Source: Eutreptiella sp. 'Long Island Sound 2002' (Eukaryota > Euglenozoa > Euglenophyceae > Eutreptiales > Eutreptiaceae). Taken from it: a stretch of 64,000 nt of DNA. The translations under genes and the position numbers were made by a program. Numbering within the stretch: position 1 is the first letter of the stretch; each line of letters starts with the position of its first letter. This document shows, one piece after another, positions 17,659 to 34,404 of the stretch. The notes beneath the pieces are model-generated. The model searched no databases. It had not been told where the DNA came from and saw only the letters and a program-made list of their open reading frames with translations. Location of the stretch: positions 85,519,939 to 85,583,938 of the forward strand of contig OZ038379.1 in the NCBI GenBank assembly GCA_964036045.1, read 5' to 3'.

Positions 17659-19109
17659 CTATATACCTCAGGGGAATGGGGGACCCAAAGGGGAAACCCC
17701 CCCCCCCACTGCAGCCTCGCCCTGTGCTTGCGTCGTGCTTGCGTCGTGCCTGCGACATGCGTGCTACAAAGAGAGGACGACAAGGGCCCCCCCCCCCCCC
17801 CCCCCCACACACACCACCGCCCCCCCGAGGGTTGGGGATGACGGTAGCGGAACGCGGACCCCCCCCCGAGGACGACGCGGCAGGGTGGGGAGGCAGCGGA
17901 GAGAGGGAGCGGGACGGACCACACGACCGTGCCCAAAGGGAGCACGAGCCGTGCAAGCCCCAACGGGGGGACCACCGGGGGTGCGACCGCAGGGTAGGTA
18001 GGGCGACGACGGGAGCCACACGGCAAGCCCCCCCCCCCCACCTGCAGAGGGACACGTGCCGCGCCTCGTGCCTGCACCGTGCTCGCGACGTGCTTACGCC
18101 AGGGGACAGGAAGCGAGGAAGCGAGGAGACAGCGAGGGGACATGGGGGGGGGGGGGCAGAGGACACACCGAAACGCCGGGGGGAGAGACGAGTGGCGAGC
18201 GGTGGGAGTAAAAAAAAAAAAACAAAGGACACCAATGCGCCAGAGCCGGGGCAGACAGCAGGGGCAGACGGGACACGACAGGAACCAGGAAGCACGGCAA
18301 GGGGCGCGGGAAAGGGGGACACCCCTGGGGAAGGAAGCTGGGAGGCAGGGACCAACACCGCAGCGAACGGGGGGGGGGCTGGGGTGGCAAGAGCCCGCAA
18401 AAGACGTTGGTGAGGTACCCGACCTCAGGGGTTTGGGCCCCCCCCCGGTGTCCGTATCGGCCCCACCTGAGCACAGGCAATAAGGTGGGTTACGCCCGGG
18501 ACCGTTGGCCAGCGGCCCGAGGTGGCACCGGCCTGGGCGGGTGGCCAATGGGCCTGACCAAGAGCACTCCCCACGGCACGTACTGCGGTTCGTGTCCTGG
18601 GAGGGGCTGCCGGTAGGGCACACCGTCCATCGGGGTAGGCAAGAGGCGCGCCTATCCCGCAAGGACTCCCCAGAGACCCACAGTGTACCCAACCCCGGTT
18701 TGGGGAAGGGCCGACGTACCTGGTTACGGCGCAGGTCCATTTGTACGGAGCGGGTACAAATGGACGGCCCGTACAACAGAGTTACACCCTCAGGGGGAGT
18801 GCATGCATCGGCCCCCCCGTGGGGAAACTCCCGGAGGGAGGGACCAGAGCCAGCGTCGGGCGCCCCCCCCCTCCCCCAACCCTGCTTGGCAACACACCCA
18901 CCAACAACCGGGTTGAACCAAGGAGCACACCTAGGGGGCAAAACCGCGGGCAAAGGAACACGAAAGGGAAGGGGGGGGGGGCGCGCAAGAGGGGTGGGCA
19001 ACTGTGTCTTGCGAAGTGTCGTGCATCATGAGGCCGGCAGCGAGCGGGACGGGCCACAAAGTCCACCCGTTCTCCCATGTCCATAGCTCACACAACCTTC
19101 GTTAGCTAA
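17659..19109 (+). promoter_or_regulatory. LINE copy B 5' untranslated/promoter region
   Basis: GC-rich sequence between the end of (TA)n and the first ATG of the ORF1-like protein. Two related segments (about 17690-17770 and 18020-18110), each a long C run followed by GTGCTTGCG/GTGCTCGCG-type repeats, suggest a degenerate tandem repeat, as is often found in LINE 5' regions. It contains a perfect 12-bp hairpin at 18735-18765. No promoter element can be named from sequence alone, and no protein-like ORF stands out. Confidence 0.5.
18735..18765 (+). other. Perfect 12-bp stem-loop in LINE 5' region
   Basis: Arms GTCCATTTGTAC (18735-18746) and GTACAAATGGAC (18754-18765) pair perfectly around a 7-base GGAGCGG loop, 344 bases upstream of the ORF1-like ATG. 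It stands out because its stem is AT-containing within very GC-rich DNA. Confidence 0.8.
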
Positions 19110-32583: not shown

Positions 32584-34404
32584 GGTGTCATGGGTCGTCC
32601 CGACCAGGGTAATAAGGCTCAAACCCCTGTAGGGTATTCCCATGGCACCGGGGTCTCTACTGGCGGCCTGGCTACGGCAATATTGGGAGTGGTTGCTCGG
32701 GATACACCGGGGGTGCACGGAGTTGTCTGGGGGTTACGGCGCCCCCTGGGAGTGTTACACAGGGTTGCGGGGACAGCCTGCAGGCCCCGGGAGCGGCGAC
32801 GAAGTGGTGATGTGTGCGTAGAGGGATGTGACGGCGAGGTCGTCAGGTGGACAGTATGGCGGGCGTCCTGGAGACGGAGTGGCAGCCTGGGAGGAGCACT
32901 CACGGGGGGCACGCGGAGTTCAAGGTGGCGGTGTACTGGCGTCTTGGGGGTATACGCGGCGGTACTGGGGAACCGTACAGTGGGGGAGCTGCGGGGATGC
33001 ATGGCGGTATTGGGGGTTCCCCTTGACCCCTCCAACAACTCAGGGGGCGCGTGGGGGCATCCCCTGACCCCGTTAACAAACTAGAGCGACCGTGCCTGCG
33101 GGCATGTACATAGTCTAACCTCTGACCATGGCCTTGCGGTTGCGGTGGTGCGTATGGTGGCGGCTTGCAGGTGGCATCGGCGTGGCAACAGCGGTACTGC
33201 GCGGCGTCGTCGCGAAGAGTATGCGGTCGCCTCACCATTGTAACGACTTACCCCTGGGGGGCGCCAGTCCGGTCGGCTAGAGGCGGGGAGAGAGGAGGAG
33301 CAGCATGCTGAGTGGTCCGGGGGGTGACGCGCGGGCCAATGCTATAAGTAGGCTCGCTACGTCGTCGGTGGGGGCCGAACCTGCGGCCTGGCCGCTGCTG
33401 TGGCGGAAGAGGCGCAACCACGGGAGCTGGCCAAACAGTGCAGGTAAGCGTCAGGGGTAGGCGCCACGCCAAAGTATGTGGGCCAGATGAGGTGCACCTG
33501 GTTACCACAGCCCGGGGCGAGCCTCTGGTGGGTACCCCTACAAGGGGTCGATAATCAAGCTACGGCACCCGCCAGCCCGAATCCCAGCCAGCGATATTCA
33601 CGGGTTGCGCCACTCCCGTCGCGTAGCGGCCAGCGTCCCCCCCTGTAGACCCTCAGATTATATTATACGTGGGCAAGAGGATGCCTCGAAGCTGATTGGG
33701 TTCTGGCCCCCGACAAGGAGTGCCGGCACAGTATATATATCTGGGGTGTGGGTGCTGCTCAGGGCCACGGGGACGTGGAGTTGATACCGTGTTTCTGTAC
33801 TATACTAGGGGACTGATGCGCTGGGTGGGCGGCGTACATTGTGGGGACACGGGGACGAAGAAGGCTGAGGGCCAGGCTAGGCTGGAGCCTCCCAGAAATC
33901 CTGGCTGTGCATAAAAGGGTTATTGCGTGCTGGCAGTGGGATATGAGGAGTCAGGGGTGGTGGGTATTTACGAGTACGCGGCTGACAGTGGATTACGTGG
34001 GGTCACAGGTACTGGACGTCTCCACGGTGGCGGGGGTACACGAACAACGGTGAGTCCGCTCTTGCTTCGCCGCATGCGTGCTGCTTTGTGCCTTGGTTGC
34101 CGCTTTGCGCCGGACGGTGAAGCCTTTGCTTTCTGCTTCTTGCGATGCTGCTGCATTGCTGTGCCTTGCCCCCTTACCACCGGCGAACAAACGGGCCAGC
34201 GTCCGTCGCCGTTGCTAATTCTAACGCTTTGCAGTCGCCACTGCCCCCAAAGCCTCGTTGACCGGTATCCCCGGTCCTCTGGGTCCTCCGTCATGCTGTG
34301 GGCCACCACAGGCAGCCCTGGGACCCACGGGATCGAGCGAGGCAGGAACCACCTGTCGGCGCGAGATGCCCGGTAACTCCAGTAGACGGCATGATAAGGC
34401 ATGA
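32584..34404 (+). other. LINE copy B 3' tail
   Basis: About 1.8 kb after the last sense ORF, shared with copy C throughout and with copy A in part. It includes TATATATCT and TATAAAAG-like AT islands but no convincing sense coding. An antisense frame of 122 codons (32350-32718, minus) is kept in copies A and C. The extreme 3' end is a short direct repeat GGCATGATAA-GGCATGA that merges with (TA)n; there is no poly(A). Confidence 0.7.

Follow-up and report, generated by a model that had tools for sequence, protein, structure and literature searches.

The window analysed here, a stretch of 64,000 nucleotides from Eutreptiella sp. 'Long Island Sound 2002' (GenBank assembly GCA_964036045.1, contig OZ038379.1, positions 85,519,939 to 85,583,938 of the forward strand), contains between two (TA)n tracts a copy, termed copy A, of a giant long interspersed nuclear element (LINE). 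This copy very probably represents an autonomous, recently active family of non-long-terminal-repeat retrotransposons of about 20.8 kb that inserts into (TA)n microsatellites. LINEs usually measure 3–9 kb. Copy A comprises the remnants of two open reading frames (ORFs), separated by a single stop codon and bordered by untranslated regions (UTRs); coordinates refer to the window:

17589–17665, no strand: (TA)n tract at the 5′ junction of copy A (Tandem Repeats Finder); its left flank is repeated at an unoccupied tract at 55973–56024
17666–34403, plus strand: copy A of the giant LINE, bounded by (TA)n on either side; all 10 genomic copies read are collinear with it
17666–19109, plus strand: partial 5′ UTR of copy A (4.7 kb in full-length copies)
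19110–25631, plus strand: ORF1 remnant (2373 aa in intact copies), beginning MSLSVPT at 19110, mapped on genomic copy c2
25632–25634, plus strand: single UGA between ORF1 and ORF2 (TGA in 11 of 11 copies)
25635–32341, plus strand: ORF2 remnant (2234 aa in intact copies), mapped on copy c2
32342–34403, plus strand: 3′ UTR and 3′ terminus, from window copies B, C and D and the genomic copies
34404–34592, no strand: (TA)n tract at the 3′ junction of copy A, common to copy D (tandem-repeat scan)

All parts of copy A lie in one orientation between the tracts at 17589–17665 and 34404–34592, with LINE protein pieces spread over all three forward frames. Comparison with genomic copy c2 gives 16 insertions or deletions, 9 of which are not multiples of three, and in-frame TAG codons stand at 23857, 29939 and 30890. 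The interval 17666–34403 is read as one single LINE copy, 5′-truncated and frameshifted; it is called truncated because the 5′ UTR and 5′ ends of the full-length copies c5 and c9 extend further upstream. Taken alone, the window copy with its two blocks and broken frames would also suit a composite, in which an ordinary LINE with an apurinic/apyrimidinic endonuclease (APE) at about 25.6–34.4 kb lies beside an unrelated gene or element (17.7–25.6 kb) or has become joined to it by chance. The narrow range of ORF1 relatives points the same way: protein database searches, in which scoring was confined to the roughly 8000 candidates with the most shared words, returned five matches to ORF1, all from one family and 79–97% identical. 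However, both blocks recur in the same order in 10 of 10 other genomic copies, three copies hold both ORFs open in one frame, and both ORFs are under selection. The collinear copies rule the composite out, and it is now hardly credible; only a mis-assembly common to all of them could save it. The first-pass annotation had proposed one LINE rather than a chance stack, and had named as a refutation that 17659–25600 might belong to a different element; the collinearity of this region with the reverse transcriptase (RT) part in all ten copies bears the proposal out.

The host genome assembly comprises 2,280,300,865 bases in 2205 contigs. Searching it with the RT yielded 18,913 first-look candidates, 50 of which were scored; counting that of the window itself, 34 of the 50 matches contain no stop. 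Ten genomic copies (c1–c10) were picked for ORF2 frames of about 2200 codons and taken with 10 kb on each side. Every one of them is collinear with copy A across ORF1 and ORF2, from window position 19706 or earlier through the 3′ end; in c3, 2500 N lie upstream of the collinear part. Five copies were traced further upstream, two of these by another 7 kb. Copies c5 and c9 share the same 5′ sequence directly behind a TA tract, about 3255 bases ahead of the start of the copy coordinates, and both end at 17553, so that the full length amounts to about 20.8 kb. The layout is a 4.7-kb 5′ UTR, ORF1 (2373 aa), one in-frame UGA, ORF2 (2234 aa), a 2.3-kb 3′ UTR and (TA)n. Copy c2 reaches to about 80 bases from the common 5′ end, c7 stops short of it, and the 4.7-kb 5′ UTR of c5 holds two diverged tandem units with a spacing of 711 bp that are 79.5% alike. 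The element length of 16.7 kb given in the first-pass annotation is thus replaced, being that of a 5′-truncated copy; that annotation also lacked the family length and the one in-frame UGA, and did not recognize landing in TA as characteristic of the family.

ORF1, one TGA and ORF2 follow each other in the same frame in the intact copies. Both ORFs are open in c1, c2 and c4 (c1 being one residue longer), while one or both are broken in the others. All 11 copies, that of the window among them, have the TGA at the junction, and 10 of the 11 have an overlapping ATG. Since the first Met of the ORF2 frame is located past WNVQG, the conserved motif at the start of the APE domain, translation of ORF2 would call for readthrough, initiation at a non-AUG codon or a shift of frame. 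Reinitiation at the ATGA was considered as a route to ORF2 and rejected: the overlapping ATG lies in a frame other than that of ORF2 and is missing in c1. Use of UGA as a sense codon was likewise discarded, as neither ORF of c2 contains an internal TGA and UGA therefore acts as a stop.

Both ORFs are under purifying selection. Omega, the ratio of nonsynonymous to synonymous substitution rates calculated according to Nei and Gojobori (NG86), is 0.10–0.29 for ORF2 in 15 of 15 pairs (six copies) and 0.34–0.37 for ORF1 in 3 of 3 pairs (three copies). Segment by segment, c2 compared with c6, c10, c7 and the window copy gives values below 1 wherever computable, up to 0.91 (ORF1 residues 481–770, c2–c7), although small segments hold few changes and the window copy includes post-insertion decay; the segment with the CCHC knuckle gave no value for c2–c10. 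Judged by its intact and similar copies, the family is recently active.

ORF1 carries four recognizable regions:

19554–19856, plus strand: His/Pro-rich repeat region, read on c2; 189-bp tandem units in other copies
21885–21941, plus strand: CCCH zinc finger C-x7-C-x5-C-x3-H, ORF1 residues 1125–1143 (Pfam on intact copy)
23410–23649, plus strand: Ulp1-like cysteine protease motif HW-x-D-x-QQP-x-DCG, ORF1 residues 1633–1712
25080–25190, plus strand: Cys/His-rich, zinc-finger-like stretch near the ORF1 C terminus, read from sequence, no Pfam match

The His-rich stretch, with its placement corrected, belongs to ORF1 (19110–25631). The finger matches Pfam zf-CCCH on the intact copy with an E-value of 8.4e-4 (19.6 bits, below the cut-off of 20.5) and zf_CCCH_4 with 5.3e-5 (23.6 bits against a cut-off of 29), and the match is weak on the window frames. 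At motif level, ORF1 holds the catalytic set H-D-Q-C of Ulp1 (C48) with HW and QQP..DCG, and the order HW, D, QQP, DCG is that of Ulp1; the spacing between Gln and Cys is two residues longer than in yeast Ulp1. The strict pattern occurred in 0 of 20,000 shuffles and the loose one in 93 of 20,000, both patterns having been written after the sequence was seen. The His, Asp, Gln and Cys are invariant in six aligned rows, all from one family.

ORF2 is arranged as follows:

25665–26396, plus strand: APE-type endonuclease (Pfam Exo_endo_phos; motifs WNVQG, GDFN, SDH)
27196–28335, plus strand: reverse transcriptase (RVT_1; LINE RT chains in PDB)
29801–30241, plus strand: RNase H motif region, with D1402, E1435, D1457, H1516 and D1526 in intact ORF2 numbering (motif level)
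30554–30607, plus strand: CCHC zinc knuckle C-x2-C-x8-H-x4-C
31991–32092, plus strand: C-terminal Cys motif (DZR_2, weak)

The endonuclease and RT named in the first-pass annotation stand on Pfam matches in both the window frames and intact ORF2 (Exo_endo_phos, 7.2e-7 and 5e-9; RVT_1, 1.7e-15 and 7.7e-19), and the best PDB chains for the RT are those of LINE RTs. Its CCCH finger and His-rich ORF1 are likewise recovered on the intact copy. The RNase H residues D-E-D-H-D are invariant against a second family, 36–37% identical, as is the CCHC knuckle; three near-identical rows make this effectively one comparison. Copy A has the TAG at 29939 within the RNase H region, where c2 has Glu. The C-terminal zinc motif also named there reaches an E-value of 0.0051 with DZR_2 in the window but 1.7 on the intact copy. 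Behind the CCHC knuckle follow 577 residues with no Pfam or PDB match, in which the restriction-like endonuclease (RLE) pattern (K/R)PD...(D/E)xK is absent in 3 of 3 proteins scanned, in agreement with the first-pass annotation.

Further copies inside the window were found by self-comparison:

42192–47833, minus strand: copy B, 5′-truncated, about 96% identical to copy A, (TA)n on both sides
1005–2728, minus strand: copy C, 5′-truncated and 3′-shortened, about 93% identical to copy A, (TA)n at its 5′ end
34593–34816, minus strand: copy D, tiny, internally deleted and inverted, directly behind copy A

A TA tract borders the 5′ end of all four window copies (A, B, C and D). Among c1–c10, (TA)n lies directly at the 3′ end in nine of ten. 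A further sample was formed by 20 of 41 additional 3′ ends found by 3′ UTR identity; past the end of the matched 3′ UTR, 18 of these 20 reach a (TA)n run of six units or longer in the next 70 nt. For comparison, of 20 control stretches taken at round coordinates, each 700 bp long, none contains (TA)n of five or more units, and about 4% of window positions lie within 70 nt of a TA tract. Insertion into TA runs is favoured by the fact that complete as well as truncated copies have TA on either side. Two arrangements were noted in the sample: a tail-to-tail pair (L042) and a tandem 3′-end fragment within one TA tract (L050). One of the 20 control stretches belongs to the family (656 of 14,000 bases), which puts its share of the genome very roughly at 5%, with a wide error. 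The control stretch L064 contains a distant match to the ORF2 RT, 35% over 79 residues.

Several points weigh against an autonomous, TA-targeting giant LINE. The copies were chosen for long frames or 3′ UTR identity and do not form a random sample. Copies c5 and c9, the only ones in which the full-length 5′ end is seen beside TA, have interrupted ORF1 frames, and the start of c4, which falls no more than about 10 nt from that terminus, is not flanked by TA. At the 3′ end of c6 the repeat is (TATG)n, and the two remaining 3′ flanks of the sample, inspected by eye, contain four TA units (L049) and scattered TA only (L040). While a constant 3′ end combined with 5′ truncation, as in LINEs, is seen in copies A, B and D, in c1–c10 and in the 20 further 3′ ends, copy C lacks the last 455 nt and backs the 3′ UTR rather than the terminus; the terminus, which the first-pass annotation regarded as fixed by two other copies, is set by B and the inverted D. 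As for the proteins, the protease region has no Pfam match in the window or the intact copy and no PDB match, and its AlphaFold model (predicted local distance difference test, pLDDT, 29) is unusable. A second AlphaFold model, of ORF2, is equally unusable (pLDDT 31). The RNase H region matches nothing in Pfam or PDB, and a phmmer search of PDB with the APE domain matched no endonuclease chain. The cysteine protease and RNase H of the first-pass annotation thus persist as ordered, conserved motif residues, not as database-recognized domains. Finally, the TA run at the 3′ end, considered on its own, could be a tail that the RT has added.

Extended to the whole family, this last point would make the TA tracts 3′ tails synthesized by the RT, and the 5′ tracts the product of nested insertions into older tails. 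There is precedent in green algal RandI elements, which terminate in simple repeats, for example (ATT)n (PMC3747384). Tail-to-tail pairs do exist (A and D in the window; L042), and the TA tracts of the window are themselves bordered by repeats. Against this stand TA at the 5′ ends of two full-length and four window copies, the (TATGAC)n of the element's own 3′ end, which precedes the TA run in most copies shown, and an empty, paralogous TA site at 55973–56024 that carries the left flank of copy A. Tail synthesis is therefore rather improbable as the source of the tracts, and insertion into pre-existing (TA)n is preferred.

With the RT of the window as query, 106 protein matches were obtained, and a mixed profile gave 365. 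Among the best 120 of these 365, P0113–P0115 form a second family, 34–35% identical over 88–96% of the query. At least two further families carry all or part of ORF2 (P0113–P0115 and P0133; P0087 and P0090), and fragments such as P0125 and P0137 are 39–48% identical. It is suggested that P0125 stems from the same assembly as P0022 of the first family and P0137 from that of P0048; the further families probably come, at least in part, from the same genome. Searches of viral and genome contig collections found no relatives. An RT tree of ten rows (five from these families, two R2, one L1 and two other APE-LINEs) unites the five family rows in one clade (100/100, stem 1.33) apart from R2, L1 and the other APE-LINEs, with the weaknesses of two long rows, two open inner forks and unlike composition in two rows. 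A clade of its own fits this tree, whose few reference rows do not suffice for naming it. Compared with PDB, the intact RT as a single sequence scores 66.3 bits with 8gh6, which we take to be Bombyx R2, 57.2 with L1 and 36–45 with the chains labelled R2 in PDB. For L1 and 8gh6, respectively, the scores are 48.2 and 47.6 with the window RT and 149.9 and 142.2 with the mixed profile; P0113 scores 63.3 with 8gh6, 50.1 with 9nl2 (R2) and 49.9 with 8c8j (an L1-type chain). The RT is accordingly about equally near to R2 and L1.

Human L1 resembles the giant LINE in APE–RT order, two ORFs, 5′ truncation and target-primed reverse transcription, and differs in its length of about 6 kb and in lacking RNase H, protease and comparable site specificity. 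The repeat-targeting elements SART1 and Togen are shorter than the giant LINE. A similar parts list is offered by the Dualen/RandI LINEs, reportedly described by Kojima and Fujiwara in 2005; according to the first-pass annotation, Dualen of Chlamydomonas was described with a cysteine protease. Dualen is given both an APE and a PD-(D/E)XK endonuclease (PMC3636483, PMC4640811) and Dualen/RandI an RNase H (PMC4640811); Dualen occurs in relatives of Chlamydomonas (PMC8226300), and an expansion is reported in cryptophytes (PMC12747079). The giant LINE shares with Dualen/RandI the APE and RT and, at motif level, the RNase H (PMC4640811), and with green algal RandI a simple-repeat 3′ end (PMC3747384), but differs in the absence of a detected RLE, the length of about 20.8 kb, the CCCH finger, the 2373-aa ORF1 and the (TA)n sites. 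It might still be a true Dualen/RandI element whose RLE has diverged beyond recognition within the 577 residues after the CCHC knuckle. The similar parts list would agree with this, as would the selection on ORF2 residues 1666–2110 (omega 0.31–0.36) and the first place of 8gh6 for the intact RT and P0113, a ranking that a lineage intermediate between RLE and APE groups might show. Conversely, the RLE motif is absent from all three proteins scanned and the residues match nothing in Pfam or PDB, three chains named R2 in PDB score below L1 for the intact RT, and L1 comes first for the mixed profile and the window RT. Membership in Dualen/RandI is less likely than not. The alternative left by the first-pass annotation, a Dualen-like element or a new clade, agrees with the similar content and with the separate RT clade of a tree without a Dualen row, whereas the second endonuclease of Dualen was not found. 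On present sequences the copies are taken to be those of one genuine, giant LINE family that is associated with TA, resembles Dualen in its parts and is as yet unassignable to Dualen.

Ulp1-like proteases are known from RLE-type LINEs, namely NeSL of nematodes and Utopia-1_TSP (PMC4640811). Like the protease motif of the giant LINE, the protease of NeSL/Utopia lies N-terminal to the RT, Utopia of oomycetes also has an RNase H, and both groups are target-specific (PMC4640811). Unlike these elements, which bear a C-terminal RLE, the giant LINE has an APE and its protease motif resides in a separate upstream ORF. In RLE-type LINEs a C-terminal RLE replaces the APE; here the APE is present and the RLE motif absent. 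Short tandem repeats also serve as insertion sites for SART1, in telomeric (TTAGG)n (PMC7265360), and for Togen, which is related to NeSL and targets (TG)n (PMC4640811), although the repeats differ from (TA)n. Among the papers listed by the literature searches, judged mainly by title and opening of the abstract and mostly without subscription papers, none reports a LINE near 20 kb, one targeting TA or one combining CCCH, Ulp1 and APE.

The life cycle of the family may be pictured as follows. The RNA would be translated into ORF1 and then, through readthrough of the UGA or reinitiation, into ORF2. ORF1 may bind RNA by means of its CCCH finger, and the Ulp1-like protease could trim the product or act on host SUMO-type tags. 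The APE endonuclease would nick (TA)n, where the RT would prime synthesis (target-primed reverse transcription); RNase H may remove the template, and incomplete synthesis would leave 5′-truncated copies. A new LINE clade may tentatively be proposed, somewhat short of an even chance, which would combine a length of about 20.8 kb, a gag-pol-like ORF1-UGA-ORF2 arrangement with a potential readthrough polyprotein of about 4600 residues, its own SUMO-protease-like enzyme and CCCH finger, and APE-directed insertion into (TA)n. To our knowledge, about 20.8 kb exceeds any known LINE. Long LINE templates are thought to be copied only partly, and near-full-length copies of about 20.8 kb with some 4600 codons under selection raise the question of RT processivity, just as the SUMO-protease-like domain and the CCCH finger raise that of their contribution to a LINE. 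With its conserved single UGA between giant ORFs, the family offers a LINE in which readthrough can be tested directly, and its landing in (TA)n suggests that the APE endonuclease prefers simple repeats.

Copies B and C have similar flanks on both sides (2918 and 48303; 967 and 42181), which suggests that TA tracts are meeting points of several repeat families. A TA tract at 37481–37740 is the centre of an inverted repeat (GAGAGGGGTGTAGATTAGAGGA-(TA)n-TCCTCTAATCTACACCCCTCTTTC) flanked on both sides by 162-bp satellite arrays, and the motif CTACACCCCTC adjoins many TA tracts. Behind copy D lie an interstitial (TTAGGG)-type repeat (35472–35566) and a run of 200 N that marks an assembly gap (36301–36500). 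Minisatellite arrays of a 23-bp type, up to 12 kb long, with 74–80% GC and a strong skew of C over G, occupy 4779–16836, 50369–54481 and 58745–61811.

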